Shown in pieces: positions 7,047-35,619 of a DNA stretch of 64,000 nucleotides. The notes below the pieces were generated by a model. The model made no database searches. It was not told where the DNA came from and saw nothing but the letters and a program-made list of their open reading frames with translations. Source of the stretch: Halothermothrix orenii H 168 (GTDB taxonomy: Bacteria; Bacillota; Halanaerobiia; Halanaerobiales; Halothermotrichaceae). The stretch is taken from contig NC_011899.1 in NCBI RefSeq assembly GCF_000020485.1, forward strand, positions 469,501-533,500, in the 5' to 3' direction. The stretch's first letter is position 1. The number at the start of each line of letters is the position of its first letter. The translations under genes and the position numbers were made by a program.

Positions 7047-7104
7047 TATTATATACCTCCTGAGTATCATCCAAAATAACCTTATAAGTTATATTCAATA
7101 TAAT

Positions 7105-7390: not shown

Positions 7391-7539
7391 TTAACGTGGA
7401 TTAATCCATATATAGCAGGATTTTTTTACATATTTCCAGAATTAATATATTAAATATACAAATATTAGCATGTTTAATTTACAAAAATGTGGTCAGGACT
7501 AAATTGCTTTATATGTAAGCATTTATGGGAGGGAGAAAA

Positions 7540-10288: not shown

Positions 10289-10291
10289 ACC

Positions 10292-13200: not shown

Positions 13201-13324
13201 AAAGAACATGCGTAGAAAAATCAAACTTTCTCTGGCAGGTTATAAGGAATTTAGGAATAAACTTGACAGTCTTACTACAAAAATTATAAAGCTTGCTCGA
13301 AATATTTTGATGATGATGCTTTAG
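10292..13324 (+). CDS. hsdR: type I restriction endonuclease subunit HsdR
   Basis: A 1010-residue motor and nuclease subunit that translocates DNA and cuts at a distance when the target is unmethylated. The N-terminal nuclease shows PD-(D/E)XK residues D143 and E157-C-K159 (VIECKVD). The SF2 helicase follows: QGSGKS Walker A (311-316), DEAH (412-415), FTGTP motif III and QAIARVNR motif VI. The C-terminal 300 residues are helical and would contact HsdM. TTG at 10292 is the start, placed after GAGGAGG inside the end of hsdS. Length is normal and there is no disruption, so the system looks functional. Confidence 0.95.
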   Translation: MTKNWDEYHRVEKRALNLFERLGYKVFDINKTMERPARNSEHEVLLLDNLKKGIKRINPWISENNLNKAVNMIRPARIKATNLLEANEIIYERLVKHVSVLQDLGQGKKNQTVKYIDFEDPDNNEFLVMNQYKVKGRENIIPDIVVFINGIPIGVIECKVDTIDEPEEKAIEQLRRYQNIREYDLEEGAEQLFYTNQVLVAAWKDSASASTIGAPARQFKAWKDPYPSTIDNITKLVGEEPTMQDILLYSMFKKERLLDLIQNFIVFEREGNGIVKKLARYQQYRAVCKAVERIKNARKLTERSGTVWHTQGSGKSLTMLFLALKLRRMKELENPTLLIVTDRRDLDEQITGTFKKCGFPNPIRAKSVKDLKEKLRLDAGKTIMTTVQKFQERDNDKYPVLSEDTNIFVMVDEAHRTQYKDLAANMRRALPNACYLGFTGTPIDKKARSTIRTFGTYIDTYTIEESVEDGATLPIFYEARLADLRVEGRDLDKLFDRIFKDYTDEEKQKIKEKHATEKDIAEASSRIEKICLDIIEHYESKIYPFKAQIVTVSREAAAKYKETLDNLNGPESAVIISGDRTDKGLIKKYITTGDERKELIKRFKDYHDSLKFLIVCDMLLTGFDAPVEQVMYLDKPLKEYNLLQAIARVNRRYDNKNFGLVVDYYGVFDHLKEALEIFNKKDIENAVTPVKDEKPRLERNYRGVMRLFDGVNMDNLDQCILAFKEEDQRIKFKNAFKAFARSMDIIMPDPIADPYREDLKKLGKIYKAVRNHYRDKNLNIKGVGDKVKKLIDKHIMATDIKILSEPVSILDEEKFEETINEIRNKETRASEMEHAIRNEISIKIDENPAYYQSLKERLEELIERRKQGMLDFAEQIEEMKEIINDIRNVRSKAERLGLNEKEFALYELLVDELEPYYTEEVADPPVKYNAGKQSRTDIKINEKVKNLAQSLINELEDMAVFEWYKKEIVLKNMRRKIKLSLAGYKEFRNKLDSLTTKIIKLARNILMMML

Positions 13325-14049: not shown

Positions 14050-14061
<12 letters not shown>
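13336..14061 (+). CDS. YgjP/SprT-like metalloprotease of the type I R-M operon
   Basis: A 241-residue protein of the DUF45 (YgjP-like, M48-related) group. The zinc-binding HELVH lies at 200-204, with a probable third ligand in HPDHSVNFW just after; [17 protein letters not shown] upstream is the family's other conserved block. GTG at 13336 follows AGGAGGG, 11 bases after hsdR. Such genes recur as a fourth member of type I R-M operons, so a role linked to HsdR, perhaps control of its activity or turnover, is plausible but unproven here. Its last 12 bases overlap the decayed transposase gene on the other strand. Confidence 0.88.
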
Positions 14062-14988
<927 letters not shown>

Positions 14989-20658: not shown

Positions 20659-20687
20659 TTGACTAATTTTTCGAAATATTTTATACT
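20659..20687 (+). promoter_or_regulatory. promoter of the lacI-riboside-citrate lyase operon
   Basis: TTGACT (20659-20664), 17-base spacer, TATACT (20682-20687). The predicted start near 20694 lies directly before the operator cluster, as expected for LacI-type repression. Confidence 0.85.
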
Positions 20688-20697
20688 TGTAATTGGA

Positions 20698-20730
20698 AAC
20701 GTTAACGGTAACGTTGTCGGTAACGTTAAC
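20698..20730. promoter_or_regulatory. triple LacI-type operator cluster
   Basis: The palindromic core AACGTT occurs at 20698, 20710 and 20722, exactly 12 bases apart. GTTAACG (20701) and CGTTAAC (20724-20730) form a larger inverted repeat around the centre. LacI-family operators contain a central CG in a palindrome of this kind. The cluster lies at about +4 to +36, overlapping the start of transcription. Confidence 0.75.
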
Positions 20731-20763: not shown

Positions 20764-21771
20764 ATGCCTGTTACTATTAAGGATATAGCTAAAAAGGCTA
20801 ATGTATCCGTGACAACTGTGTCCAGGGTCTTAAATAACAAACCCGATGTTAGTGAGAAAACTAAAAGTAAAATTCTAAAAATAATCAATGAGTTGGGCTA
20901 TAATCCGAATGGAGTAGCCAGGGGACTGGTACTAAATAGGACACATACAATTGGACTAATTATCCCTGATATAAGAAACCCATTTTTTCCTGAAGTTGCC
21001 AGAGGTATTGAAGATAAGGCAAAAGAGTATGGTTACTCTGTTATTTATTGTAATACAGATAACAAGAAAGAGGAGGAAAAAAAGGCTGTTGAATTATTGT
21101 TAAATAAAAGGGTGGATGGAATTATTTTATCTCTTTCTATGAATAACAGAGATGAACTGGATAGAATAAAAAAGCAGGGTTGTCCCATTGTACAGATTGA
21201 TAGGAAAGTTCCTGATGCCAATTACCCAACAGTTACAATTGATAATTTAATTTCAGCTTATAACGCTACTAAACATTTGATTAACCTGGGTCATAAATAT
21301 ATTGCTCATATTACCGGTAACCTGGATACTAAAACCGGTCAGGATCGTCTTAACGGTTATAAAAAGGCTATGCATGAGCGAGGTATACATATAAGTCAGG
21401 AATGGATTATAGAGGGTGATTATAGTAAAGAAAGCGGTTATAAAAATATGAAAAGAATCTTAAATTTAAAGAATAGACCAACCGGTATTTTTATTGCCAA
21501 TGATTTAATGGCAATTGGTGCCTATAAAGCAGTATTTGAATCCAAATTAAATATACCTGAGGATATTTCCATAATTGGACATGATGATATTGAACTTGCT
21601 TCTCTGGTAAATCCTGAATTGACAACTATGGCTCAACCTAAATATGAAATGGGCAAACACGCTGCCAGGTTACTAATTCAGGAAATTGAGGGTTCAGACC
21701 AGGATAATAACCAAAACATTCTATTAAATACGGAACTTGTAGTCAGGGGTTCTACAGGGGGAGTTGGTTAA
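20764..21771 (+). CDS. LacI family transcriptional repressor
   Basis: A 335-residue repressor. The N-terminal helix-turn-helix and hinge read VTIKDIAKKANVSVTTVSRVLNNKPDVS (residues 3-30), followed by a periplasmic-binding-protein-like effector domain (GLIIPDIRNPFFPEVARGIE, with HDDIELASLVNPELTT near the C-terminus). It resembles RbsR-type regulators. The ATG follows GGGAGG. It is the first gene of the operon and would repress itself and the rest through the operators at 20698-20730; the inducer is probably the imported sugar or a product such as ribose. The ribokinase gene starts 2 bases after its stop. Confidence 0.93.
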   Translation: MPVTIKDIAKKANVSVTTVSRVLNNKPDVSEKTKSKILKIINELGYNPNGVARGLVLNRTHTIGLIIPDIRNPFFPEVARGIEDKAKEYGYSVIYCNTDNKKEEEKKAVELLLNKRVDGIILSLSMNNRDELDRIKKQGCPIVQIDRKVPDANYPTVTIDNLISAYNATKHLINLGHKYIAHITGNLDTKTGQDRLNGYKKAMHERGIHISQEWIIEGDYSKESGYKNMKRILNLKNRPTGIFIANDLMAIGAYKAVFESKLNIPEDISIIGHDDIELASLVNPELTTMAQPKYEMGKHAARLLIQEIEGSDQDNNQNILLNTELVVRGSTGGVG

Positions 21772-21773
21772 TA

Positions 21774-22694
21774 ATGACAAAGGAGATTCTTGTAATAGGT
21801 AGTTTAAACATGGATTTAATTGTCCAAACTGAAAAATACCCACGTAAAGGTGAAACAGTACCGGGAGAAAATTTTAAACAGGTACCTGGAGGTAAGGGTG
21901 CTAATCAGGCTTTAACTGCTGGTAAGCTGGGTGGTCAAGTAAGGTTTATTGGTTCCTGTGGGAAGGATGAGTATGGTACAACACTTTTAAATAATTTGAA
22001 AAATGGTGGAGTTATTGTAGACGACATTCTCAGGGTTGAAAAAAACACAGGTATTGCCATGATCACGATAGAAAAAGAGGGGTCTAACAGGATTATCTAT
22101 GTTAAAGGGGCCAATGAATATGTTACACCTGATGTTGTAATGAAAATGGAAGATAGATTTAAAAAAGCATCAATTCTTTTGATTCAAATGGAGATTCCCC
22201 TGGAATCAGTTATTAAGGCTGTTGAATTGGCTAAAAAATATCAGATGAAAGTTATTCTTGATCCATCACCTGTACAGGGGCTCCCGGAAAAAATTTTTCC
22301 TCTTATAGATTATATACTACCAAATGAAATTGAATTGGATGAGTTAGTAAAAAATGGATGTCAAATTGAAGAAGAGAAAGCAAAGCACCTCCTGAAACTT
22401 GGCACAAATAATGTAATTGTAACAAAAGGGAAGAACGGGGTTTCCCATTATTATGAAGATAAGGTTGCAACATATGAAAGCTACCATGTTAAAGCGGTAG
22501 ATACAACTGCTGCCGGTGATGCCTTTGCTGGATCATTAGCTTATGGTCTAAGCCAGGGATGGTCACTGGAAAAAACAATTAAATTTAGTAACCTGGTTGC
22601 TGCTAACTCTGTAACAAAACTGGGAGCCCAGAGCTCACTTCCTACATATCAAGAAGTTATGAAATTTGCGAAACATATAAAAAAAAATATATAG
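21774..22694 (+). CDS. rbsK: ribokinase (PfkB family)
   Basis: A 306-residue cytoplasmic kinase that phosphorylates ribose at O5 with ATP. It has the PfkB N-terminal signature with GGKGANQA (residues 39-46), and the C-terminal signature VDTTAAGDAFAGS carries the anion hole and catalytic Asp (GDAF). NMDLI at the start fits ribokinase well. It is directly coupled to lacI and precedes the transporter genes. In this operon it would trap ribose released by the ARH-type hydrolases. Other PfkB sugars cannot be fully excluded. Confidence 0.92.
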   Translation: MTKEILVIGSLNMDLIVQTEKYPRKGETVPGENFKQVPGGKGANQALTAGKLGGQVRFIGSCGKDEYGTTLLNNLKNGGVIVDDILRVEKNTGIAMITIEKEGSNRIIYVKGANEYVTPDVVMKMEDRFKKASILLIQMEIPLESVIKAVELAKKYQMKVILDPSPVQGLPEKIFPLIDYILPNEIELDELVKNGCQIEEEKAKHLLKLGTNNVIVTKGKNGVSHYYEDKVATYESYHVKAVDTTAAGDAFAGSLAYGLSQGWSLEKTIKFSNLVAANSVTKLGAQSSLPTYQEVMKFAKHIKKNI

Positions 22695-22710
22695 GTGAGG
22701 TGTCAAAACG

Positions 22711-23595
22711 GTGTATGAAAGTAGAACTGTAGGACAAAAAAAATTGGAACAGCTAAAACTACTTTTACCAGCACTAATTCCAGTCATATTATTTTCCTTA
22801 ATCCCATTACTCAGGGGAATTTATCTGGGGTTTACTGATTATGTGCTGGGGTCAGATGTAAGTTTTAATGGTTTTGAAAATTACAAATATATGTTGACTG
22901 ATACATATTTCTGGCAGTCTTTTAAAATAGGTTTTGTCTGGACAATAGCCGTAACAGCCGGGCAGATATTACTGGGGTTAGGTCTGGCCATGCTTTTAAA
23001 CGGGGATGTGTTGTTCAGGTCCTGGGCCCGGGTACTTATACTTATTCCCTGGGCAATGCCGCCGGTTATCAGGGGTATTATGTGGAAATTCATGTATCAC
23101 CCTGATACTGGAGCTATAAATTATTTTTTAATGAAATTAAATATAATTGACCAGCCTATAGATTTTCTTTTTAGTTTTGATTATGTAATTCCGGCTGTAA
23201 TTATTGTTGGTATCTGGGGAGGTTTACCACAGGCAGCCATTACCTTACTTGCTGGTTTACAATCAATTTCAGATGATTATTATGAAGCAGCGTGTCTTGA
23301 TGGGGCAAATGGCTGGCATACATTTCGGTATATAACCTTACCACTGTTAAGCCCAGTTATGACAGCAATAACAATTCTGAGATTTATTTGGAATTTTAAT
23401 TCATTTGGATTGGTTTATGTACTTACCCAGGGAGGCCCAGCGGGTATGACCAGGATTCCAACCCTGTTGGCCTATGAAGAAGGATTCAGGTATGGTAATG
23501 TTGGTTATGCTGCAGCTCTGGGAAACGTAATGGTACTTGTAGTAGCAGTACTGATGTTTATGTATCTCAAAAGAAGAATGAGTAAGGAAGTTTAA
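22711..23595 (+). CDS. CUT1-type ABC sugar permease (MalF-like)
   Basis: A 294-residue permease with six predicted membrane segments. The EAA loop that contacts the ATPase reads YYEAACLDGANGWHTFRYITLP (key residues E-A-A then D-G-A near 192-198). GTG at 22711 follows AGGTGAGG, 16 bases after rbsK. It pairs with the next permease and the binding protein. CUT1 systems normally take oligosaccharides or glycosides, not free ribose, which would use a CUT2 system. No ATPase gene is present, so a shared MsmX-type ATPase elsewhere is expected. Confidence 0.93.
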   Translation: MYESRTVGQKKLEQLKLLLPALIPVILFSLIPLLRGIYLGFTDYVLGSDVSFNGFENYKYMLTDTYFWQSFKIGFVWTIAVTAGQILLGLGLAMLLNGDVLFRSWARVLILIPWAMPPVIRGIMWKFMYHPDTGAINYFLMKLNIIDQPIDFLFSFDYVIPAVIIVGIWGGLPQAAITLLAGLQSISDDYYEAACLDGANGWHTFRYITLPLLSPVMTAITILRFIWNFNSFGLVYVLTQGGPAGMTRIPTLLAYEEGFRYGNVGYAAALGNVMVLVVAVLMFMYLKRRMSKEV

Positions 23596-23612
23596 TAAGG
23601 GGGTGAAACAAT

Positions 23613-24446
23613 ATGAATCTAAATATTATTAAAAAAATTGGGAAGAATTTGATATTATTATGTTATTTAATATTTTTAGCATTTCCACTTTTCTGGATGG
23701 TTTCAATTTCTTTAAAACCAACATCAGAAATAAGATCCCTTGTTCCGAAGCTCTGGCCAGAAAATATAACCTTTCAGCATTACATTAATGCTTTTACCGA
23801 ACAACGGATTATTGAAAGTATTTTTAATAGTGCTAAAGTGGGGATTCTAGCTACAATTGGGGTTATATTAATATCTATTCCTGCAGCATATGCCCTGGGT
23901 CGATATAAGACAAAAGTCAATAAAGGTGTTATAGCCTGGGTTATGGTATCTCAGTTATTTCCTGCTATATTAGTAATGATTCCTCTGTTTGTCGTTTTAA
24001 TGAATATAGGTTTAATAGATTCACATATAGGTTTAACCATTTTATATGTTGTCTGGACACTACCCTTTGTCCTTATGATGTTAAAAGGATATGTACAGGG
24101 TATTCCTATAGAACTTGAAGAGGCAGCTGCTGTTGATGGGGCGACTAGATCACAGATTCTTTTTAAAGTTGTTATGCCCCTACTACTTCCGGGAATTGCT
24201 GCTACATCTATATTTGCTTTTATTTCAGCCTGGAATGAATTTTTCTTTGCACTTGTTTTGTTGAAATCTCCTGAACTTCTGACTCTACCGGTAAAACTGG
24301 CACGTTTTACTGGTATGGAGGGGATTGTTCGTCTCGGGCCTCTGGCTGCTGCATCATTTGTCGCCACAATCCCGGCCTTGATTCTTTTTGGTTTTTTACA
24401 GAAGTGGCTGGTTTCTGGACTAACAAGTGGTGCAGTTAAGTATTAA
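23613..24446 (+). CDS. CUT1-type ABC sugar permease (MalG-like)
   Basis: A 277-residue partner permease with six membrane segments and the EAA loop ELEEAAAVDGATRSQILFKV (near residues 168-187). The N-terminal FPLFWMVSISLKP and the tail ending SGAVKY are typical of MalG-like proteins. The ATG follows AAGGGGGTG, 17 bases after the first permease gene. It forms the heterodimeric channel with it. Confidence 0.93.
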   Translation: MNLNIIKKIGKNLILLCYLIFLAFPLFWMVSISLKPTSEIRSLVPKLWPENITFQHYINAFTEQRIIESIFNSAKVGILATIGVILISIPAAYALGRYKTKVNKGVIAWVMVSQLFPAILVMIPLFVVLMNIGLIDSHIGLTILYVVWTLPFVLMMLKGYVQGIPIELEEAAAVDGATRSQILFKVVMPLLLPGIAATSIFAFISAWNEFFFALVLLKSPELLTLPVKLARFTGMEGIVRLGPLAAASFVATIPALILFGFLQKWLVSGLTSGAVKY

Positions 24447-24485
24447 ATAAATTTATAATATTAGAAAAAGGGGGACAAATTAACT

Positions 24486-25781
24486 GTGAAAAAACTATTA
24501 CTTTTGTTAATGGTGGTTAGTTTATTGGCAGGGGTAGCTGCGACAGGGTTGGTTATGGCAAAAGAACCAATTGAAATTAAGTTTGTTAGTCTGGCCTGGC
24601 AAAAGCAATCTATTGAGGCTAATAAAGAAATTGTAGCTGAGTGGAATAGAACTCACCCTGATGTACAGGTAAAATATATTCAGGGGACATGGGGTTCAAT
24701 CCATGATTATATGATTACTGCTTTTGAAACAGGTTCTGTACCTGATGTTTTTCACTATGAATCTGCTGCGATAGTGGGTTTTGCCCAAAAGGGGTATCTG
24801 GCAGAACTTAATTCATTAATGTCTGAAGATTTAAAGAATGACATACTTGATGAAGCCTGGAAGACTACCCAGCTTGAAAATGGTAAAATCTATGGTGTAC
24901 CATTCCTGTGGGAATCTCAGATTACATTATATAACAAAGCCCTGTTTAAAGAAGCCGGGATTACTCCACCAACTATTGATAATCCATGGACCTGGGAAGA
25001 CTTAAGAGAAGCTGCTAAAAAGCTGACCAAAGATACTGATAATGACGGTGAAATTGATCAATGGGGTGTTGGTTTAGGTTTAAAAAGTCCGGCTAAAAAA
25101 ATGCTCAGATTATCTGTGGGCTTTGGTGGAAAGTTCTTTAAAAAGGAAAATGGTGAATATCATGTTGAGGTAGGGGAAGCAGAAAAGAAATTGTTAAAAC
25201 AGTTTTATGCTATGCTCTATGAAGATAAAACAGCTCCTCTATCAGGTATAGGTCAATCAGGTAGTAGTATGATTCCTGGTTTTCTTGCCGGTAAATATGC
25301 AATGGTACCCAGTGTTGGTGTCTGGGCCAGGCAGCAGGTTGTTGTTAATGCCCCTGAAAATTTTGAATGGGGAGTAATTCCCCCAATTAAGGCCAAAACT
25401 CAGGCCCAGGGTGTTGGTACCCAGACTTTAAGTATTCCATCTGCATCTAAATATAAAAAAGAAGCCATGGAATTTATTGAATTTTTCTTGAACACCAGGA
25501 ATATGGCAAGACTGGCAAAAGGAGACTGGATGCTTCCTACCAGAAAATCAACTATGAATTTACCTATGTTCCAGACCGATGAAAATGGCTGGAAGGTTGC
25601 CATGAATTCAGCTAAGTGTCTTGAAGCAGGTCCCTGGCAAAATATACCAGGATTTCCTGAATGGAAAAACAGGGTTGGTAATCCAGTTATTCAGCTATAC
25701 TTAAAAGATAAAATATCATTAGAAGATGCTGCTAAAAGGCTAGAGAGAGAAGGAAACAGGATCCTGCAACGTTATAAATAA
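24486..25781 (+). CDS. periplasmic sugar-binding protein of the CUT1 importer
   Basis: A 431-residue solute-binding protein of the MalE-like family. A signal peptide (residues 1-25) ends near VMA-KEP and has no lipobox cysteine, so the protein should be soluble in a periplasm rather than lipid-anchored. GTG at 24486 follows AAAAAGGGGG. Motifs such as PDVFHYES, GKIYGVPFLWESQITLYNKALFKEAG (about residues 135-160) and GKYAMVPSVG are typical. It captures the substrate for the two permeases. Its gene comes directly before the four ARH genes, linking the transported compound to them. Confidence 0.92.
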   Translation: MKKLLLLLMVVSLLAGVAATGLVMAKEPIEIKFVSLAWQKQSIEANKEIVAEWNRTHPDVQVKYIQGTWGSIHDYMITAFETGSVPDVFHYESAAIVGFAQKGYLAELNSLMSEDLKNDILDEAWKTTQLENGKIYGVPFLWESQITLYNKALFKEAGITPPTIDNPWTWEDLREAAKKLTKDTDNDGEIDQWGVGLGLKSPAKKMLRLSVGFGGKFFKKENGEYHVEVGEAEKKLLKQFYAMLYEDKTAPLSGIGQSGSSMIPGFLAGKYAMVPSVGVWARQQVVVNAPENFEWGVIPPIKAKTQAQGVGTQTLSIPSASKYKKEAMEFIEFFLNTRNMARLAKGDWMLPTRKSTMNLPMFQTDENGWKVAMNSAKCLEAGPWQNIPGFPEWKNRVGNPVIQLYLKDKISLEDAAKRLEREGNRILQRYK

Positions 25782-25799
25782 AGGAGATTGAAATAATCT

Positions 25800-26789
25800 A
25801 TGACAGTAAAAAAAGACAAAGCTCTGGGAGCTTTGGTTGGTCTGGCCGTGGGTGATGCCCTCGGCCAGCCGACTGAAGGAAAAACATGTAATGAGATAAA
25901 GGAAAAATGGGGAAGGATTACAGACTTTTTAGACGATACTCCAGCTGTTAGTGATGATACAGAGTATGCTTTATTTAATGCAAGGTTACTTCTGGATTAT
26001 GGTGAACATCTTGATACTGATAAAATTACAGATGCCTGGGTTAAGGAAATAGCTTCCCAGCACGGGGGATTTAAGGGCGCTGGATTCAGTGAGATGGCAA
26101 CAATAGAGAATTTAAGAAATGGGCTTCGCCCACCTGATTCAGGTAAACACATTCATAGCTGGAGTGATGGACTGGCCATGAGGGTGGCACCCTTCGGTAT
26201 TGTTGCCGCAGGTGATCCTGAACTGGCTGCCCGTTTGGCCAGGATGGATGGGGAAGTTAGTCATGCCGGGGAAGGTATATATGCCGGAATGCTGGTTGCA
26301 GCAACCATTTCTCTGGCAATGACAGAAAAGGATAAGGAAATAATATTTAATACTTCTTTAAATATGATACCTTCTGACTCATGGACGTACAGGGCTGTCT
26401 GCCGTGGAATTAATATTGGTCAAAAGTATTCAAATATCTGGGAAGTTCTTGAACCACTGTATAAAGAGACCGTTTTTGATTGTTACCCCTGGGCTGATTT
26501 AGCACCAGAGGCTTTAGGTTTAACGTATGGCATCCTGACTGTAGCTGATTTTAATTTTGTTGATTCTGTAGTAGGCGGGGTTAATATCGGGAGGGATACC
26601 GATACTAATGCTGCCATTGCCGGGGCTATTGCCGGTGCCTATAATGGCATAGATGTAATACCCCAAAAATGGCAAGGGGTAATTAAACCGAGTGAAGGTA
26701 GGTGCATTCATACAGTAGAAGGAATGGTAATAGATGATATTGCTTTAAAACTGTCTGAACTGGGTGATAAATGGGGGGCCGCTTTATGA
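25800..26789 (+). CDS. ADP-ribosylglycohydrolase family protein, paralogue 1
   Basis: A 329-residue ARH/DraG-fold enzyme; such enzymes use two metal ions to cleave bonds at C1 of ribose. Both metal sites are intact: GLAVGDALGQPTE (14-26) and SDDTEYA (51-57) at the N-terminus, GRDTDTNAA (264-272) at the C-terminus. No signal peptide, so it acts in the cytoplasm. It lies 18 bases after the sugar-binding protein gene and overlaps paralogue 2. The genomic setting (importer plus ribokinase) suggests hydrolysis of an imported riboside rather than removal of ADP-ribose from proteins; that is inference. Confidence 0.92.
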   Translation: MTVKKDKALGALVGLAVGDALGQPTEGKTCNEIKEKWGRITDFLDDTPAVSDDTEYALFNARLLLDYGEHLDTDKITDAWVKEIASQHGGFKGAGFSEMATIENLRNGLRPPDSGKHIHSWSDGLAMRVAPFGIVAAGDPELAARLARMDGEVSHAGEGIYAGMLVAATISLAMTEKDKEIIFNTSLNMIPSDSWTYRAVCRGINIGQKYSNIWEVLEPLYKETVFDCYPWADLAPEALGLTYGILTVADFNFVDSVVGGVNIGRDTDTNAAIAGAIAGAYNGIDVIPQKWQGVIKPSEGRCIHTVEGMVIDDIALKLSELGDKWGAAL

Positions 26790-27829
26790 AATTGATAGAA
26801 AAAAATGCTAAAGGAATAATGATGGGACTGGCAATAGGAGATGCTGTTGGTTGGCCGGCTATGTTTCAGCGGTCCCACCTTTTACCCGGCTGGACCAGAA
26901 GACTTCGTCGGGAAATAGAGGATGAAGCTGAAAAATATAATATTATTCGTCCATCAGTACCATTTTCATTAAACCGGCCGCCACAAAAATTCGAAATTTC
27001 ACCGGGTGATGATACAGAATGGGTATCTTTTACTGCAAAAATGATAATAGAGAGTGAGGGGAAGTGCGACCGGGGTTTTGTTATAAATAAATGGAAGAAT
27101 TTAATGGAGAATAAGGACATGGTTAAGGGGAGTATGAGCGTGATGGGGGCATTAACTAATATTGAAAGAGGTAAATATCCACCAGTATCTGGCCATGACA
27201 ACCCTCATTTTTTTGATGATGCTGCCTGTGTCAGGTCAATACCATTTGGTATTGCCTTTGCCGGTAAGCCTGAATTAGCTGCAGAAAAAACTGTTGTTGA
27301 TGCTGAAGTCACCAATTCTGAAGATGGACTGTGGGCAGCCCGGGCAATGGCAGCTGCTACTGCTGTTGTAGCTGCCGGTGGTTCCTGTGATGAGGTATTA
27401 AATGAAGCACTTAGCTTATTACCCAGAAAGAGCTGGATTAGGCGAAAAGTTACAGAGGCCCTTAGTCTTGTCAGAAGAAGGTCTATTTTTGCTGCTATTC
27501 CTTTGCTCGCTGACAGGGTAACCGGTAGCATTTATAGTTATGGTACGGCAGCACCTGAAACCCTGGCTTTAACCCTTGCAATTTATAGTAAAAGCAAAGA
27601 AGATTACATTAAGGGAATTATGGCAGCAAACTGTATAGCCCGGACTGCTGATTCTGTTCCTGCTTTAGTAGGAGCCTTATCAACCGGTCTTGCTGGAGGG
27701 GAAAATATACCGGATAGCTGGTTAAACAGTATTAATAAATTGCGAGGTATATGTATTCCTTCATTAAAAGATACTGATTATATTGAAATCATTAATGATT
27801 TAATTGAGATAGTTAAATCGATGGATTAA
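26786..27829 (+). CDS. ADP-ribosylglycohydrolase family protein, paralogue 2 (metal site degenerate)
   Basis: A 347-residue ARH-fold protein. GLAIGDAVGWPA (14-25) and GDDTEWV (74-80) are kept, but the C-terminal motif is ARTADS (285-290), so the first Asp of the usual GRDTDT or GGDTDT is lost and one metal ligand is missing. A 30-residue insertion follows the first motif. ATG at 26786 overlaps the stop of paralogue 1 as ATGA and is preceded by GGGGGG, so the two are coupled. It could be an altered-specificity enzyme, a non-catalytic partner, or an enzyme with one metal. Confidence 0.85.
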   Translation: MKLIEKNAKGIMMGLAIGDAVGWPAMFQRSHLLPGWTRRLRREIEDEAEKYNIIRPSVPFSLNRPPQKFEISPGDDTEWVSFTAKMIIESEGKCDRGFVINKWKNLMENKDMVKGSMSVMGALTNIERGKYPPVSGHDNPHFFDDAACVRSIPFGIAFAGKPELAAEKTVVDAEVTNSEDGLWAARAMAAATAVVAAGGSCDEVLNEALSLLPRKSWIRRKVTEALSLVRRRSIFAAIPLLADRVTGSIYSYGTAAPETLALTLAIYSKSKEDYIKGIMAANCIARTADSVPALVGALSTGLAGGENIPDSWLNSINKLRGICIPSLKDTDYIEIINDLIEIVKSMD

Positions 27830-27867
27830 TATGTATAATTGTATAATAAGTAAGGAGTGCTGTCTAT

Positions 27868-29199
27868 ATGAAAATAACCTGGATTAAACCGGAAGATAAA
27901 ATAGAATATGAGTTAGAGCAGTCCCGCCAGGAAGGAAAAGATATTTCTACAATACAAAATAAATGGAAAATATTAAAAGAGGAAATATCTGATACTAAAC
28001 TATTAAGACAAAAAGCCCTTAATTTATTAGATGAAATTGACTCCCTTCCTTATGAAACAGATCTGTATAAAGAAGAACCTGTAAGATTGATTGAAATTAA
28101 GGAAAAGAGTAAACAGTTAGATTATAGTAATAGGCTTTCCCTGGATGAAGAAGAGTTATTTGATAAAATTCTTGGTGGATGGCTCGGTAGAACTGCCGGC
28201 TGCCTTCTGGGAAAACCTGTCGAAAAAATAACACGTTACGGTATAAGGGAAATACTAGAATCAATAGATAGCTGGCCTCTTAATGATTATTTTACTGCCT
28301 GTGGCGTACCTGATGAGTTGCTCACTAAATATCCCTGGAACAGACATGGTGGTAAAGAAAGCCTGAAGGAAAACATAGTTTGTATGCCTGAAGATGATGA
28401 TTTAAATTATACCATGTTAAATCTCCATATCGCAGAAACATATGGATTTGATTTTACCGTTGATAATATTGCAGAGGCCTGGTTGCATAGTTTACCAGTT
28501 ATGACTGTTTTTACAGCAGAAAGAGTAGCTTATTTTAATTGCCTGAATCTAATTAATCCTGCAGAGGTAGCCACTCATCATAACCCTTACCGGGAGTGGA
28601 TTGGTGCCCAGATCAGAGCTGATCTGTGGGGCTGGATGGCTGCCGGAAACCCGGTAAAAGCAGCTGAACTGGCCTATAGAGATGGCTCTTTTACCCATGT
28701 TAAGAATGGGGTTTATGGTGAAATGTTTGTTGCAGCTACCATAGCTGCTTCATTTTTAACAGACAATCCTCTGGATGCTGTTAAAATGGGATTAGCTGTA
28801 ATACCACAGAAAAGCCGTCTTGCAAGGGCGATTCGTTTTGCTATAAATTTACCCCGGAAAACAGAAGACTGGGGAGAAGCAGTAGATATTTTATATAAAA
28901 AATACGGTCACTATCACTGGGTACATACAATAAATAATGCTGCTTTACTTACTGCTGCTATAGTATACGGCAAAGGTAATTATGAAAAAACAATTTGTTT
29001 AGCTGTTATGGGGGGTTGGGATACGGATTGTAATGGAGCTACCGTTGGTTCTATATTAGGCACCCTTCTGGGAGCTAAACGTCTTCCGGATAAATGGATT
29101 AAACCCCTAAATAATAGAATCCGCAGTAGCCTTAAGGGTTTTGATAATGTCAGAATAGATGAACTGGCTAAGAGAACATTTAACTTAGTTGATCAATAA
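27868..29199 (+). CDS. ADP-ribosylglycohydrolase family protein, paralogue 3 with N-terminal extension
   Basis: A 443-residue ARH-fold protein with an extra helical domain of about 95 residues in front. The catalytic core follows: GGWLGRTAGCLLGKPVE (103-119), PEDDDLNYTML (174-184) and GGWDTDCNGAT (382-392), so the metal ligands are present in a variant form typical of a distinct ARH subgroup. The ATG follows AAGGAGTG, 38 bases after paralogue 2. The separate architecture argues that it attacks a different bond or substrate than paralogues 1 and 4, rather than being a recent duplicate. Confidence 0.9.
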   Translation: MKITWIKPEDKIEYELEQSRQEGKDISTIQNKWKILKEEISDTKLLRQKALNLLDEIDSLPYETDLYKEEPVRLIEIKEKSKQLDYSNRLSLDEEELFDKILGGWLGRTAGCLLGKPVEKITRYGIREILESIDSWPLNDYFTACGVPDELLTKYPWNRHGGKESLKENIVCMPEDDDLNYTMLNLHIAETYGFDFTVDNIAEAWLHSLPVMTVFTAERVAYFNCLNLINPAEVATHHNPYREWIGAQIRADLWGWMAAGNPVKAAELAYRDGSFTHVKNGVYGEMFVAATIAASFLTDNPLDAVKMGLAVIPQKSRLARAIRFAINLPRKTEDWGEAVDILYKKYGHYHWVHTINNAALLTAAIVYGKGNYEKTICLAVMGGWDTDCNGATVGSILGTLLGAKRLPDKWIKPLNNRIRSSLKGFDNVRIDELAKRTFNLVDQ

Positions 29200-29227
29200 T
29201 AAAAGATAAGGGTAGGTGTTGTTTCTA

Positions 29228-30208
29228 ATGTTTAATATAAATGAATTTAAAAAAGATGATGATTTAAAATTTGATCGTGCCCTTGGAGCTATGATAGGAC
29301 TGGCTATCGGAGATTCCTTCGGGGATGCCTCCAGAACTGAAAAAAACCATAAACGTTTTGGTATAACCATGGATTTTGATGAGGGTGCCTCCTGGAGTAC
29401 AGATGATACAGAATTTGCCCTGTTGACAGCTCATACCTTAATAGAAGTACAGGGAAATTTAACTATAGAATCAGTAAAAGAGTCGTGGCAGAAATATGTC
29501 ATTCCCCAGGATGAATTATATCGTGGCGGTTCAAGTGAAATTGAGGCAGCAGTTAATATTAAAAGGGGTATAAACCCACCCGAATCTGGAAGGTTCAATG
29601 CTTATAATATTAGTGATGGTGCCGCCATGAGGGTAACCCCAATTGGAATTGTTTGTGCTGGTGATCCAGAAAAAGCTGCCAGAATGGCAGAAGTTGATGC
29701 CTGTATTAGTCACTGGCGTGATGGAATCTGGGGTGCTCAGGCAGTAGCTGCTGCTATAGCTATGGCAATGGTTGGTGCTTCAGTTGATGAAATTATATCA
29801 GCTGCCTATAAGGTTATTCCCGAAGACTCCTGGTTTAAATATGCGTTTAAAAAAGCCCTTAGAATTGTTGAAAGTTCTAATTCGATAGAAGAAGCATGGA
29901 CCCCACTCCATACTGAACTCTGGTCAACTTATAAAGCTGCAGTTCCTGAAGCTATTTCCCAGGCCTTTGCCTTATTTAAGCTTTCAGAAGGTGATTTTCG
30001 TAAAGGTGTCATTTATGCCGGTAACTTTGGCCGTGACGCAGATACAATAGGAGCTATTGTTGGAGCCTTAAATGGAGCCTTAAATGGGGCGGAGGAAATT
30101 CCGGAAAGATGGAAAGAAAAAACACGCTATCCAACAGGAACCTGTTTAGCCTTTACAGAAGGAATGGATGTTGTCAAGATCTCTAAAAAGCTTGCTGAAT
30201 TAATTTAA
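29228..30208 (+). CDS. ADP-ribosylglycohydrolase family protein, paralogue 4
   Basis: A 326-residue ARH-fold enzyme similar in length and motifs to paralogue 1: GLAIGDSFGD (24-33), STDDTEFA (57-64), GRDADTIGA (268-276). All metal ligands are present. The ATG at 29228 is favoured; a GTG at 29216 overlaps the SD (AAGGGTAGG). It is 28 bases after paralogue 3 and 22 before citC, with no terminator or promoter between, which ties the ARH block to the citrate lyase block. Confidence 0.9.
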   Translation: MFNINEFKKDDDLKFDRALGAMIGLAIGDSFGDASRTEKNHKRFGITMDFDEGASWSTDDTEFALLTAHTLIEVQGNLTIESVKESWQKYVIPQDELYRGGSSEIEAAVNIKRGINPPESGRFNAYNISDGAAMRVTPIGIVCAGDPEKAARMAEVDACISHWRDGIWGAQAVAAAIAMAMVGASVDEIISAAYKVIPEDSWFKYAFKKALRIVESSNSIEEAWTPLHTELWSTYKAAVPEAISQAFALFKLSEGDFRKGVIYAGNFGRDADTIGAIVGALNGALNGAEEIPERWKEKTRYPTGTCLAFTEGMDVVKISKKLAELI

Positions 30209-30230
30209 TATTTAACCGGGGGTTTTTTCT

Positions 30231-31310
30231 GTGTCAATATGGAACCTGCGAAAGGAAATTCTTTATCCACCTGTAGATGATATGACAGAAGTGGCAACAT
30301 TTCTTAATGGACTCAATCTTGAACTGGAAGAAAGGCTTGATTGTATTCTCGTCCTTAGAATAAATAACAGGGTTGTTGGTACCGGGGGCCTGGATGGGAA
30401 CATTTTGAAATGTGTGGGGGTGGACCCTGAGTTTCAGAATCAGGGTCTTTTAAATACTATTGTAAGTGAGTTGAAACATATATTGTACAGAAAAGGGTAT
30501 AATAGTCTTTTTGTTTATACCCCGGAACACCAGGTTGTAAGATATAAGAATCTCGGGTTTGTTGAAATTGAATCAGTTGGGGATTATCCCGTTTTAATGG
30601 AAGATAGTATGGAGGGGTTTAATGGTTTTATACGTAGTTTAAAGAAAAAAACACAGAGAATTAATTTAGATTTAAAAAAAATAGAAGTGGCATCCCTTGT
30701 TATGAACTGTAATCCCTTTACTAAAGGACACCTCTATTTGATTGAAAAAGCAGCCAGGGAACGTGATATTGTTTTTATCTTTTTGTTGACAGAAGATCGT
30801 TCCCTTTTTCCTGCTAACATTAGATATGAACTGGTAAAAAAGGGTACTAAACACCTTGATAATGTTATTGTTTTCAGGGGAGGGGATTATATATTATCTT
30901 ATACTACTTTTCCTGATTATTTTATAGGTTCCCAGAGAGGTGAAGAAAAAGCCAGGCGGTATGCAGAACTTGATGCCAGAATATTTGCCCGACATATTGC
31001 CCCTGCCCTTAACATTAACCACCGTTATGTGGGGAGTGAACCTTACTCATCTATAACTGCGATTTACAATCAGGTTTTGAAAAAGGTCCTCCCATTATAT
31101 GGTATTAGTTTATGTGAAGTGAAAAGGAAAAACTATAAAGGACAGCCTATAAGTGCTTCACGTGTAAGGAGGTATCTGGGAGAAGGCAATTATAAAAAAG
31201 TAAGGGATCTGGTACCAGAGGTAACCTATAAATTTTTACAGAGTCCTGGAGCCCAAAAAATTGTTGATTACCTCCAAAATAAGTTCAGGGGGGATAAAAA
31301 TGGAAATTAA
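30231..31310 (+). CDS. citC: [citrate (pro-3S)-lyase] ligase
   Basis: A 359-residue enzyme that acetylates the thiol of the citrate lyase prosthetic group with acetate and ATP, turning the lyase on. A GNAT-like N-terminal domain (residues 15-125, with VGVDPEFQNQGLLNTIV) precedes the nucleotidyltransferase domain, whose motif NPFTKGH is at 161-167. GTG at 30231 follows a weak GGGGG. It starts 22 bases after ARH paralogue 4, and its end overlaps citD. Confidence 0.93.
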   Translation: MSIWNLRKEILYPPVDDMTEVATFLNGLNLELEERLDCILVLRINNRVVGTGGLDGNILKCVGVDPEFQNQGLLNTIVSELKHILYRKGYNSLFVYTPEHQVVRYKNLGFVEIESVGDYPVLMEDSMEGFNGFIRSLKKKTQRINLDLKKIEVASLVMNCNPFTKGHLYLIEKAARERDIVFIFLLTEDRSLFPANIRYELVKKGTKHLDNVIVFRGGDYILSYTTFPDYFIGSQRGEEKARRYAELDARIFARHIAPALNINHRYVGSEPYSSITAIYNQVLKKVLPLYGISLCEVKRKNYKGQPISASRVRRYLGEGNYKKVRDLVPEVTYKFLQSPGAQKIVDYLQNKFRGDKNGN

Positions 31311-31584
31311 GAGAACTGCAAGTGCCGGAACAATGGAATCATCAGATATAATGATAACTGTAAAACCGTCAAATAATGGTATAAAAATTGAACTTAAAAG
31401 TGATGTAGAAAAACAATTTGGGAATCAGGTCAAAAAAATTATTAAAAATACTATAGAGGGGATGGGGGTAAAAAATGTGTATATTCGTGCTCAGGATAGA
31501 GGAGCACTGGATTATGCAATAAAGGCAAGAACCAGGACAGCCCTGGAGAGGGCCAGCAAGGGGGCTGAAGAGATTGAAAAATAA
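31300..31584 (+). CDS. citD: citrate lyase acyl carrier protein, gamma subunit
   Basis: A 94-residue acyl carrier subunit. AGTMESSD near residues 9-16 holds the serine that carries the phosphoribosyl-dephospho-CoA prosthetic group. ATG at 31300 follows AGGGGGG; an upstream frame start is excluded by overlap with citC. The end overlaps citE by 11 bases. It shuttles the acetyl and citryl groups between CitF and CitE. Confidence 0.93.
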   Translation: MEIKRTASAGTMESSDIMITVKPSNNGIKIELKSDVEKQFGNQVKKIIKNTIEGMGVKNVYIRAQDRGALDYAIKARTRTALERASKGAEEIEK

Positions 31585-32458
31585 ATTAAGAAGAAGTATG
31601 CTCTATATTCCGGCCAATAATCCAGGTATGATCCAGGATGCTTTCATTTATGGTGCAGATGCTATATTGTTTGATCTTGAGGACTCTATTACTCTGACAG
31701 AAAAGGATGCTGCCCGTTATCTCCTCTGTAATGCCCTTCAAGAACTGGATTTTGGTCAGGCAGAGATTGTGGTCAGAATTAACCCCCTTAATACAGAATA
31801 TGGCAGGAATGATTTAGAAGTAATAGTACCGGCAAAACCTGATGCTATCAGGGTACCAAAGGTTGAAACAGGTGAGCAAATAAAAAAGATAGATAGTTTA
31901 TTAGGGAAATTAGAAAGAAAAGCCGGGATAACTCGGGGTAGTATAGAAATTATGGCTATGATAGAGACAGCACGGGGTGTTTTAAATGCCCGGGAAATTG
32001 CCAAGGCTTCTCCAAGAATTACTGCGTTGAACCTGGGAGCGGAAGACCTGACTGCAGATCTGGGTGTCAGGAGAAGTGATGAGGGAATTGAATTATTATA
32101 TGCACGTTCTCAGATTATTTATGCAGCTGCAGAGAACGGAATTGATATTATTGATACCGTATATAGTGATGTTGAGAATATTACTGGTTTAAAAGAGGAA
32201 GCTATCATGAGTAAAAGACTGGGGTTTACAGGCAAATCTGTAATTCACCCCAAACAAATAGAAATTGTTAATAGTGTATTTACCCCTTCCACAGAGGAAA
32301 TAAAGGAAGCAGAAAAAATTGTAAAACGGGCACTTGAAGCAGAAAAAAGGGGGTTTGGTGTGGTGACTGTTGATGGAAAAATGGTTGATATACCTGTTAT
32401 AGAGCGGGCTAAAAAGCTGCTTGACCGGGTAGAATCAATAAGGAGGGCTAGTAATTGA
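31574..32458 (+). CDS. citE: citrate lyase beta subunit (citryl-ACP lyase)
   Basis: A 294-residue HpcH/HpaI aldolase-family subunit that splits citryl-ACP to oxaloacetate and acetyl-ACP with Mg. LRRSMLYIPANNP at the start, FDLEDSI (residues 34-40), VRVPKVE and AMIETARGVL are family motifs; the Glu and Asp metal ligands are present. TTG at 31574 is inside citD and gives the expected N-terminus; an internal ATG at 31598 would cut off LRRS. Its stop overlaps the start of citF. Confidence 0.92.
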   Translation: MKNKLRRSMLYIPANNPGMIQDAFIYGADAILFDLEDSITLTEKDAARYLLCNALQELDFGQAEIVVRINPLNTEYGRNDLEVIVPAKPDAIRVPKVETGEQIKKIDSLLGKLERKAGITRGSIEIMAMIETARGVLNAREIAKASPRITALNLGAEDLTADLGVRRSDEGIELLYARSQIIYAAAENGIDIIDTVYSDVENITGLKEEAIMSKRLGFTGKSVIHPKQIEIVNSVFTPSTEEIKEAEKIVKRALEAEKRGFGVVTVDGKMVDIPVIERAKKLLDRVESIRRASN

Positions 32459-33948
32459 GGGAGAATACAATTCCTGAAAGGGTAGGTTCATTTAAAAATC
32501 TTCGTTCCTATAGTTATATAAAGCCAGAAAGGAAAAGTAAAATTATTGGTAGTTTAGAGGAAGCAGTAAATAAGGTTAACCTCAGGGATGGTATGACAGT
32601 TTCTTTTCACCATCATTTTCGTGACGGGGATCTAATATTAAATCAGGTTATGGATATTATTGCAGACAAAGGTGTGAAAAATCTTACCCTGGCTGCTACT
32701 TCTCTGAGAAAAAACCACGATGAAATAATTAAACACATTAAAAGTGGAGTTATTAAAAAGATATATACTTCTGGTCTAAGGGGGAAATTGGGTGAAGAAA
32801 TTTGCCGGGGACTTATGGATGAACCTGTTGTTATTTATTCTCATGGTGGTAGGGCGGGTGCTATAGAGAGTGGTAATTTAAAGATTGATGTTGCCTTTAT
32901 TGCTACTCCTGCAGCAGACAGGTGGGGTAATGCAAATGGAGTGGAAGGCACCTCTAACTGTGGCTCCCTTGGTTATACCATGGTTGATGCTAAGTATGCT
33001 GAAAAAGTTGTAGTAATAACTGATAATTTAATTGAGTTTCCACCAGAACATATTTCAATATCACAAGAGAATGTTGACTGCGTGGTTGAGGTTGATAAAG
33101 TAGGAAATAGTGATAGAATTGAAACAGGTTCTCTAAGAAAGGTTTCCAGGCCTAAGGATTTGTATATTGCCAAAAACGTTGCCAGGGTAATAAGTAATAT
33201 CAAGTATTTTCAGAATGGATTTTCGCTCCAGACAGGGTCAGGGGGGATCTCCCTGGCAGTTACTGATTTTATACAGGAGTTAATGCAGGAAAGAGACATT
33301 AAAGGTAGCTTTATCCTGGGGGGGATTACCGGGGCACACACAGATTTACTAAAGAAAGGTTTATTTAAAAAAATATTTGATACCCAGACCTTTGATCTAC
33401 AGGCAGTAAAATCACTTAGAGAAAACAGAAACCATATGGAAATAGATGCATCATTATACGCTAGCGCTTTTAATAAAGGTTCACTGGTTAATAATCTCGA
33501 TTTTGTTGTGCTCAGTGCCCTTGAGGTAGATACTGATTTCAATGTAAATGTGTTAACCGGTTCAGATGGATTTTTCCGCGGGGCATCAGGGGGACATTGT
33601 GATACAGCTTATGGTTCTAAAGTAACAATTGTGGTTGCCCCATCAGTCAGGGGAAGAATTCCAACGATTCGTGATAAAGTAACTAACATTGTTACCCCCG
33701 GGAAAACAGTAGACGTAGTTGTTACTGAAAGGGGTATATGTGTTAACCCTGAACGTGAGGATATACTTAAAGATTTAAAGAATGTAAAGGATATAGAACT
33801 AATTGATATCCATGAATTAAAAGATAAAGTAGAATCTCTGACCGGCAAACCTGAACCACCTTTATATGATGAAAAGATTACTGGCTTGATACAGTACCGG
33901 GATGGGACTATAATAGATGTAGTTAGAAAAATCTCTGACAGATATTAG
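32455..33948 (+). CDS. citF: citrate lyase alpha subunit (citrate:acetyl-ACP transferase)
   Basis: A 497-residue CoA-transferase-like subunit that exchanges acetyl for citryl on the acyl carrier protein. TTG at 32455 follows AAGGAGGG and overlaps the citE stop. Motifs such as TVSFHHHFRDGD (about residues 48-59), SHGGRAGAIESG and LQTGSGGISLAV are typical of CitF. Length is normal. It is adjacent to citXG with 21 bases between. Confidence 0.93.
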   Translation: MRENTIPERVGSFKNLRSYSYIKPERKSKIIGSLEEAVNKVNLRDGMTVSFHHHFRDGDLILNQVMDIIADKGVKNLTLAATSLRKNHDEIIKHIKSGVIKKIYTSGLRGKLGEEICRGLMDEPVVIYSHGGRAGAIESGNLKIDVAFIATPAADRWGNANGVEGTSNCGSLGYTMVDAKYAEKVVVITDNLIEFPPEHISISQENVDCVVEVDKVGNSDRIETGSLRKVSRPKDLYIAKNVARVISNIKYFQNGFSLQTGSGGISLAVTDFIQELMQERDIKGSFILGGITGAHTDLLKKGLFKKIFDTQTFDLQAVKSLRENRNHMEIDASLYASAFNKGSLVNNLDFVVLSALEVDTDFNVNVLTGSDGFFRGASGGHCDTAYGSKVTIVVAPSVRGRIPTIRDKVTNIVTPGKTVDVVVTERGICVNPEREDILKDLKNVKDIELIDIHELKDKVESLTGKPEPPLYDEKITGLIQYRDGTIIDVVRKISDRY

Positions 33949-33969
33949 GATTAAAAAGGGGTTATACTA

Positions 33970-35373
33970 ATGGAGGAATTATTAAAAGGTAGAGAGGATA
34001 GAGTTAGACAACGTAATAATTTTATCAAATCATTTAAATATAAAGACCCAGTTTCTTTTGTATCATTAACAGTTAATATTCCTGGCAGGAATAAATTAAC
34101 TCAATTTGCCAGAGATTTATTTATAGAAGCCCTAAACAGTCTGCGGTTACATTTATTTATTAAGGGAATTACAAACTGCCAGAAAAAAATTATAAAAAAT
34201 AAAGCCGGTTGGACTGGTTTTGTGGCTGTTCCCATTGAGCCTGAAAAATTGAAAAAAATATGTATCTCTATTGAGAAAAACCATTTTATAGGTAGGTTAT
34301 TTGATTTAGATGTATTTGATATAAAAAACCGGTATTATTCAAGAAAAGATTGTGGGCTATCTGATAGAAGGTGTTTTTTATGTGACCGGCCTGCTAAGGA
34401 ATGTATCAGGGTAGGAAGGCACGATTATAGGGAGATTGAATTTAAATTAAGTAAGTTAGAAAAATATTTTTATAAAATGAAATTAAAAAGAGAAGATAAT
34501 TTTACTAAAGTAATAGGTAATCTCGCTTTTGAAGCTATAATGAAGGAGTTAATGGTTACTCCAAAACCTGGGTTAGTTGATGCCCAGAGTAGTGGTAGCC
34601 ATAAAGATATGAATTTTGATTTGATGGTAAAAAGTGCGGAGAGTCTTAAACCGTTTTTCTCTAAGTTTGCCATGTTAGGCATTAAACTGGGAAGACATAG
34701 TAAAAACCCACTTACTCGACTAAAAGAGGTTGGACTTGAAGCAGAAGAAAAAATGTTTTCAGTTACAAACGGAATTAACACCCACAAGGGTGTTATTTTT
34801 TCTCTCGGACTGTTAACAGCAGCAACAGGCTATTTTTATAAAAAAATAATATTTAGTGATTATGATTTAGCAGAGAATTTGTGTCACATAGTTTCTGACT
34901 GGGTCAGTGGTATTTCTGAAAAAGAACTTAAAAAGAATCAAAATGAAGGAAATACTCACGGGCAGGTCGTGTATAATGAATATGGATTTAAGGGGGCCAG
35001 GGGTGAAGCTGAAGATGGGTTTCCCAATATTATAAATGTAGGTATACCAGCATATCGCAGGGCAATAAAGAGTAATCTGAGTGAAGAGCTGGCGGTTCTA
35101 TCTGTATTAATAAATCTAATGGCCCATGTAAATGATACTAATATTCTTTATAGATCGGGATTAGATACATTAAATGAAGTTAAAAGCCTGTCTAGAGAGA
35201 TAATTTTTTCCGGTGGGGTGGGTACACCAGAAGGCTGGGAAAGATACAAAAAACTTATTAACTTTGTAGAGAAAAAGAAAGTTAGTCCAGGAGGATCTGC
35301 TGATTTACTTATATTGACTATATTTCTTAATGAGCTTGAAGAAAAGAAGAGTTTAATATTCACCACTAGTTGA
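33970..35373 (+). CDS. citXG: CitX-CitG fusion for citrate lyase prosthetic group synthesis and attachment
   Basis: A 467-residue bifunctional protein. Residues 1 to about 175 are CitX, which attaches phosphoribosyl-dephospho-CoA to CitD, with GRLFDLDVFD (about 117-126) and the cysteine-rich CFLCDRPAKECIRVGRH. Residues from about 185 are CitG, which joins ATP-derived triphosphoribose to dephospho-CoA through an alpha-1,2 ribosyl bond, with MVTPKPGLVDAQSSGSHKDM and NTHGQ. Such fusions are known. It ends the operon; no citrate transporter or CitAB pair is nearby. Confidence 0.9.
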   Translation: MEELLKGREDRVRQRNNFIKSFKYKDPVSFVSLTVNIPGRNKLTQFARDLFIEALNSLRLHLFIKGITNCQKKIIKNKAGWTGFVAVPIEPEKLKKICISIEKNHFIGRLFDLDVFDIKNRYYSRKDCGLSDRRCFLCDRPAKECIRVGRHDYREIEFKLSKLEKYFYKMKLKREDNFTKVIGNLAFEAIMKELMVTPKPGLVDAQSSGSHKDMNFDLMVKSAESLKPFFSKFAMLGIKLGRHSKNPLTRLKEVGLEAEEKMFSVTNGINTHKGVIFSLGLLTAATGYFYKKIIFSDYDLAENLCHIVSDWVSGISEKELKKNQNEGNTHGQVVYNEYGFKGARGEAEDGFPNIINVGIPAYRRAIKSNLSEELAVLSVLINLMAHVNDTNILYRSGLDTLNEVKSLSREIIFSGGVGTPEGWERYKKLINFVEKKKVSPGGSADLLILTIFLNELEEKKSLIFTTS

Positions 35374-35589: not shown

Positions 35590-35619
35590 AAAAGAGCAGT
35601 TTTTAACTGCTCTTTTTTT
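35590..35619 (+). terminator. terminator of the 14.7-kb lacI-to-citXG operon
   Basis: AAAGAGCAGT (35591-35600) pairs with ACTGCTCTTT (35606-35614 onward), followed by a T run to 35619. No other terminator was seen from 20764 to here. The rest of 35374-35723 is AT-rich without a gene. Confidence 0.88.

Follow-up and report, generated by a model that had tools for sequence, protein, structure and literature searches.

The window, meaning the whole stretch of DNA analysed, comprises 64 kb of the 2,578,146-base single-contig genome (G000) of Halothermothrix orenii, and contains a run of 14 genes on the + strand (20764-35373). In order, the run encodes a LacI-family repressor, a ribokinase, the two permeases and the binding protein of an ATP-binding cassette (ABC) sugar importer, four proteins of the ADP-ribosylglycohydrolase (ARH) family designated ARH1 to ARH4, and the citrate lyase proteins CitC, CitD, CitE, CitF and CitXG. 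The importer and ARH genes form a conserved block which, judged from gene trees and gene architecture, is joined separately to two citrate lyase lineages, in at least two unions. The run is interpreted as a catabolic operon by which an imported ribosyl conjugate would be split into ribose and either citrate or a compound closely resembling it, a reading held with slightly more belief than doubt.

The importer-ARH1-2-3-4 block was found in at least 21 genomes of the Halanaerobiales (G000 and G022), KSB1 (G060, G062, G136 and G138) and Bacteroidota/Ignavibacteria (Bacteroidota-class genomes G059, G061, G274, G385, G623, G633, G636, G675, G705, G728, G736, G773, G782, G784 and G827). The searches covered 82 KSB1 and about 390 Bacteroidota-class genomes and were supplemented by a contig scan with ARH4 peptides, which placed relatives in KSB1, Ignavibacteria and a Melioribacter metagenome-assembled genome (MAG); the scan used only two short peptides and gave five loci where the sampled searches gave more, and 21 genomes is therefore a lower bound. 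As far as the contigs reach, the gene order is constant: importer, binding protein, then ARH1 to ARH4 in numerical order. The Halanaerobiales MAG G022 (L034/L049), from another family, has the identical 14 genes in identical order; compared with the window, ARH4 is 72 % identical, the binding protein 74 %, the permeases 78-80 % and the cit genes 42-61 %.

Citrate lyase genes lie directly after ARH4 in 14 of the 21 block genomes, with one aldo/keto reductase gene intervening in G773. The full citCDEFXG set follows ARH4 in G000 and G022, and a CitD-CitE fusion with CitF follows it in G060, G136, G138, G061, G385, G633, G705, G728, G736, G773, G623 and G636, the contig end falling inside citF in the last two. 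CitF is encoded elsewhere in the genome in five block genomes (G062, G059, G274, G784 and G675), and no CitF was found in the fragmentary MAGs G782 and G827, in which the contig stops at or before ARH4; no block genome with assessable sequence was shown to be without citrate lyase. The first-pass annotation of this DNA had raised the possibility that ARH and cit genes co-occur elsewhere, and the direct junctions in 14 genomes from three groups bear this out. In the Bacteroidota-class sample CitF was present in 11 of 15 genomes with the block versus 86 of 376 without it (Fisher one-sided P 7.5e-5, the incomplete citF genes of G623 and G636 being counted as absent), and in KSB1 in 4 of 4 versus 32 of 78 (P 0.034); these P values are inflated by kinship among the genomes, and the direct junctions are the stronger evidence.

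The CitF protein of the window is 54-55 % identical to the CitF proteins of G005 and G007, which belong to Halanaerobiales cit operons without ARH genes, and just 37-42 % identical to the block-linked CitF proteins of KSB1 and Bacteroidota, which are of the CitDE-fusion type. In the CitF tree the window and G022 group with G005 and G007 with full support, on branches that are long, while in the ARH4 tree they group with G062 and G059 (support 100/99), whose citDEF genes are not adjacent to the block. The architectures also differ, with separate CitD and CitE accompanied by CitC and CitXG in the Halanaerobiales versus a CitDE fusion in KSB1 and Bacteroidota. It is this disagreement of the CitF tree, the ARH4 tree and the gene architecture with a single joining that points to two separate unions, and the two unions are the main reason why the functions of the block and of citrate lyase are thought to belong together. 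Within Bacteroidota/KSB1, a single origin of the joined state was recovered in 48 % of bootstrap trees. The block has clearly spread horizontally, occurring in few genomes of three phyla, as would be expected had chance or hitch-hiking placed it beside citrate lyase, but there are 14 direct junctions in one order and strand. Chance adjacency and simple hitch-hiking were rejected as most improbable, given that two lyase lineages are joined to one block.

CitF without the ARH block was found in 120 surveyed genomes (32 KSB1, 86 Bacteroidota-class and the two Halanaerobiales G005 and G007), and every copy of the block is accompanied by the ABC importer, including in the five genomes with citDEF elsewhere. 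These two observations bear on the idea, put forward in the first-pass annotation, that one or more of the ARH proteins act on the citrate lyase prosthetic group, or on its precursor, by splitting the alpha(1''-2') ribosyl bond, and so recycle or repair CitD. CitG makes an alpha(1''-2') bond. Its likeness to the bond of poly(ADP-ribose), from which the idea was drawn, is sound, the known enzymes ARH1 and ARH3 being selective for alpha-1''-ribosyl linkages (PMC7050489), and the 14 junctions and the sharing of an operon with CitXG in the Halanaerobiales also speak for it. However, the 120 genomes indicate that citrate lyase does not need the block; the block implies citrate lyase and not the reverse, so that ARH proteins serving citrate lyase are unlikely. 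The constant presence of the importer tells against the idea too, as do the ARH3-related genes in riboside-type operons without cit genes (G032, L039) and the lack of CitX or CitG beside the block at the KSB1 and Bacteroidota loci, several of which are cut by contig ends. Moreover, the CitD domains of the aligned CitDE fusions (L051, L052, L068, L069, L101-L104 and L127-L134) carry Arg/Lys at the classical attachment Ser position and an invariant Ser one residue later. The proposed linkage of ARH and citrate lyase genes is thus retained, the prosthetic-group mechanism is considered very unlikely, and riboside import, named at that time as a competitor, fits better once citrate is added as a product.

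In the favoured mechanism, a CUT1-type ABC importer would take up a ribofuranosyl-containing compound, and cytoplasmic ARH1 and ARH3, perhaps with ARH4, would hydrolyse its alpha-ribosidic bonds by means of a two-metal site, with ARH2 as a non-catalytic partner. The ribokinase would convert the released ribose to ribose 5-phosphate, and the non-ribose part, predicted to be citrate or a closely related hydroxy acid, would be cleaved by citrate lyase to acetate and oxaloacetate (or the matching oxo acid). The RbsR-like LacI protein would repress the whole run from a single operator. The action of the ARH proteins on the imported compound, the origin of the acid from that compound and the identity of the acid are inferred. 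As a guess, a ribosyl-citrate such as ribocitrin, a ribose-citrate compound, would fit as the substrate. The literature searched mentions ribocitrin solely as a tentative Streptomyces metabolite (PMC13136089, citing Takashio 1982).

The riboside theme is based on the ribokinase, on the RbsR/PurR/CytR-like LacI protein and on a sister operon in G032 (L039:5400-13000), which comprises genes for a LacI protein, a CUT1 importer, an ARH3-like protein, a ribokinase and an IU nucleoside hydrolase, and no cit genes. The importer of the window has the two permeases and the family 1 binding protein, akin to oligosaccharide binders, of a CUT1 ABC sugar importer; the best PDB relative of the binding protein is the arabino-oligosaccharide-binding protein 6rjy (E 4.6e-22), and 22 PDB sequences were matched at E<=1e-10. 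Further ARH genes that adjoin an importer and a ribokinase gene, with no cit genes, are present in the Halanaerobiales; the ARH neighbourhoods L035, L037, L038 and L040 of this order contain other ARH subtypes. A secreted hydrolase of family PF00144 (beta-lactamase family) precedes the importer in KSB1 and Bacteroidota (L101-L104 and L126-L135), and several of these loci also have, upstream of the importer, an alpha/beta hydrolase bearing a Por secretion tail; both enzymes would, speculatively, suit an ester-bearing extracellular substrate.

The four ARH genes (PF03747, 137-203 bits against a cut-off of 26.2) stand in tandem and are the only four in the genome, and they score far below the cut-offs of the NCBIfam DraG and Tri1 models. 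The two-metal ligands T/S-D-D and D-x-D-T/S are present in ARH1, ARH3 and ARH4 and not in ARH2. The ARH1 motifs are invariant or conservatively replaced in 16 of 16 orthologs, all of which keep the flap Glu, and ARH3 keeps the flap Glu and every metal ligand in 21 of 21. The position of the flap Glu is occupied by Arg in all 20 ARH4 orthologs, which keep the metal ligands, and by Met, Leu or Ile in all 17 ARH2 orthologs, several of which also lose one residue of D-D. ARH2 keeps the motifs FDD and TEW and is always placed between ARH1 and ARH3. Because Glu41 of human ARH3 is required for activity (PMC7050489, PMC8319183), these residue states make ARH1 and ARH3 the likely candidate catalysts, leave the catalytic role of ARH4 uncertain and suggest that ARH2 is probably a pseudoenzyme or a partner subunit, which may pair with ARH1 or ARH3. 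The AlphaFold model of ARH4 (pLDDT 86) has the ARH fold, and its closest folds are MJ1187 (E 3.8e-10) and ARH3 (E about 5e-9), with a TM of about 0.7; the chloroplast Orf2971/Ycf2-FtsHi motor chains 8xks_Q and 8xqw_G were also matched, apparently through an ARH fold. The loop that holds the adenosine/diphosphate in the known enzyme ARH3 reads S-D-G in the ARH1 and ARH4 of the window, which hints at a ligand differing from ADP-ribose.

Import of a riboside whose other half is not citrate, with the lyase co-expressed as free or metabolic citrate shares the niche, is possible although rather unlikely. Operons with an importer, an ARH gene and a kinase gene and without cit genes are common (L035, L036, L038 and L039), E. 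coli yegTUV combines a nucleoside-type transporter with an ARH and a sugar kinase (PMC10819704), and citDEF is non-adjacent in 5 of 19 genomes. The two independent lyase unions, and the failure to find an assessable block genome without CitF, nevertheless suggest a tighter link, and the operon has no separate citrate importer. Cit operons are accompanied by an importer of their substrate; the cit operon of G005 has the tripartite tricarboxylate transporter TctABC beside citCDEFX and no ARH gene, and TctA was not found in the genome of the window nor in four other genomes with the joined block. In the window the sugar importer, the ARH genes and the ribokinase gene occupy the usual place of the citrate importer. 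Taken together with the G032 operon and the affinity of the LacI protein, the simplest reading is import of a ribosyl conjugate and its hydrolysis by ARH proteins, with ribokinase using the ribose and citrate lyase the acid. A different importer accompanies the cit genes of G007 (L125:932-16000), where citG and a citC-D-E-F-X operon adjoin an oligopeptide-type ABC importer and two AAT/C45-family proteins, and the substrate there may be a citryl amide, for instance a siderophore of the citrate type.

Several observations weigh against import of a ribosyl-citrate type of conjugate. The search of the H. orenii genome for citrate transporters covered the TctA family only, TctA genes are present elsewhere in the genome of G022, and citrate use by H. 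orenii is noted in its genome paper (PMC2626281). The citDEF genes do not adjoin the block in five genomes, and in G059 and G062 they adjoin genes for aconitase, isocitrate dehydrogenase-like or malic enzymes and may serve central metabolism. A ribokinase gene lies inside the operon only in the two Halanaerobiales (G000 and G022), and four ARH proteins exceed the need of a single ribosyl-citrate bond.

Alternatively, the acid released from the riboside and cleaved by the lyase may be a relative of citrate: citramalate, malate or a substituted citrate, for example. CitD, CitE and CitF are all present in the window (the CitE match being strong but below its cut-off), together with the attachment Ser and CitC, CitX and CitG. 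CitE, the C-C lyase subunit, scored below the TIGR01588 cut-off of 443 in both ARH-linked Halanaerobiales operons (363 in the window and 340 in G022), versus 470 for the CitE of the Tct-linked G005 operon, and its divergence is compatible with a different acid as substrate. Such scores are, however, no measure of specificity, CitF is above the citF cut-off in both the window and G022, and CitC, CitD and CitXG are orthodox; a substrate of this kind is regarded as unlikely.

The gaps along the 14-gene run measure 2, 16, 17, 39, 18, -4, 38, 16, 22, -11, -11, -4 and 21 bases, none exceeding 39 bases. The citC start (30231) lies 22 bases past the ARH4 stop codon, as the first-pass annotation had stated, and neither a terminator-like hairpin nor a promoter-like site was found by scanning this gap, nor was a LacI-type operator, the sole such site in the window being at 20698-20727 (four matches versus 0.03 expected in the window, all at this position). 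Given the lack of an internal terminator, the single operator and the strong hairpin after the last gene, the run is most readily taken as a single operon controlled by one repressor. The earlier start of the unit at position 28100 falls inside ARH3 and was replaced by the boundaries 20764-35373. The features of the operon and its flanks are listed in Table 1.

Table 1. Predicted genes and regulatory sites of the 14-gene run (positions in the window).
Feature	Position	Strand	Evidence
Promoter-like site TTGACT-17-TATACT, 5' of operon	20659..20687	+	Consensus scan 10/12; weak evidence when taken alone
LacI-type operator, two overlapping palindromes AACGTTAACGGTAACGTT / AACGTTGTCGGTAACGTT	20698..20727	+	Found nowhere else in the window
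LacI-family repressor, RbsR/PurR/CytR subgroup	20764..21771	+	NCBIfam RbsR, PurR and CytR each ~300 bits, all below cut-off
Ribokinase (rbsK)	21774..22694	+	TIGR02152, 324.9 bits, above cut-off 299.65
ABC sugar importer permease A	22711..23595	+	57-80 % identity to permease of ARH clusters elsewhere
ABC sugar importer permease B	23613..24446	+	Comparison with ARH clusters elsewhere
Sugar-binding protein of importer	24486..25781	+	51-74 % identity to binding protein of ARH clusters elsewhere
ARH1, PF03747 hydrolase, complete active site (flap Glu, S/T-D-D, D-x-D-T)	25800..26789	+	Pfam and ortholog alignment
ARH2, PF03747, without flap Glu and without first Asp of D-x-D	26786..27829	+	Pfam; 17 orthologs
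ARH3, PF03747 hydrolase, ~100-residue N-terminal extension, complete metal site (E, D-D-D, D-T-D-C/S)	27868..29199	+	Pfam
ARH4, PF03747, complete metal site, Arg replacing catalytic flap Glu	29216..30208	+	Pfam; 20 orthologs
citC, citrate lyase ligase	30231..31310	+	TIGR00124, 303 bits, above cut-off
citD, acyl carrier subunit, prosthetic-group motif GTMESSD intact	31300..31584	+	TIGR01608 above cut-off; alignment
citE, lyase subunit, divergent	31574..32458	+	TIGR01588, 362.9 bits, below cut-off 443.4
citF, transferase subunit	32455..33948	+	TIGR01584, 684.8 bits, above cut-off 501.45
citX-citG fusion, prosthetic-group synthesis and transfer	33970..35373	+	PF03802 residues 1-163, PF01874 residues 184-453
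Terminator-like hairpin, strong, bidirectional, 3' of operon	35590..35616	.	12 pairs and T tail

Elsewhere in the window, positions 7525-13324 carry an apparent type I restriction-modification system (HsdM, HsdS and HsdR-like genes), and a DNA adenine methylase-like gene lies on the opposite strand at 6126-7070; all of these are named from their translations only. An IS3-type transposase-like open reading frame at 14050-14925 is out of family in its last part and perhaps truncated.

Many bacterial ARH-family genes are without a target protein, and this operon offers a specific example in which a catabolic role can be put to the test, with a fixed set of four ARH subtypes surrounded by a conserved transporter, a kinase and a product-consuming enzyme. 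It also links ARH hydrolases and citrate lyase, two well-studied enzyme groups, and a literature search returned no paper meaningfully joining the two, nothing on catabolism by ARH proteins together with nucleoside hydrolases, and nothing naming ribosyl citrate or a pathway of this kind. Should citrate prove to be the non-ribose product, this would point to the existence of a compound of ribose and citrate in the environment and to a route that has no entry in the pathway maps of today. A tentative and rather doubtful extension is that a natural conjugate of the ribosyl-citrate type is common in anaerobic sediments and is catabolised by members of three phyla sharing the importer and four ARH-fold alpha-ribosidases; if this is true, the ARH family in these bacteria would be catabolic glycosidases and not erasers of ADP-ribosylation.

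Among known systems, the ARH/DraG family (PF03747; DraG, ARH1, ARH3 and MJ1187) shares its fold with the ARH4 model of the window and its two-metal motifs with ARH1, ARH3 and ARH4. The window proteins differ in being only ~20 % identical to it, in belonging to an import operon without an ADP-ribosyl transferase partner, and in the S-D-G loop of ARH1 and ARH4, the Arg in place of the flap Glu of ARH4 and the missing site of ARH2. Compared with the classical citCDEFXG operon (Klebsiella and E. coli, represented here by G005 with TctABC), the window has all structural and prosthetic-group genes in orthodox order, but the citrate transporter is replaced by a CUT1 importer, four ARH proteins and a ribokinase, all under an RbsR-like repressor; in addition, CitX is joined to CitG in one protein and CitE is divergent. 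E. coli yegTUV likewise unites a transporter, an ARH and a PfkB kinase in one operon (PMC10819704), but has one ARH, a transporter of the MFS type and no citrate lyase. The G032 operon (L039) resembles the window in its LacI protein (63 % identity), in the similar palindromic operator AGCGTTACCGTTAACGCT upstream, and in its CUT1 importer, ARH3-like protein and ribokinase, and differs in having one ARH, a nucleoside hydrolase and no citrate lyase. The most likely reading of the window locus is a riboside-import operon with ARH genes whose product is passed on to citrate lyase, a pathway undescribed so far.

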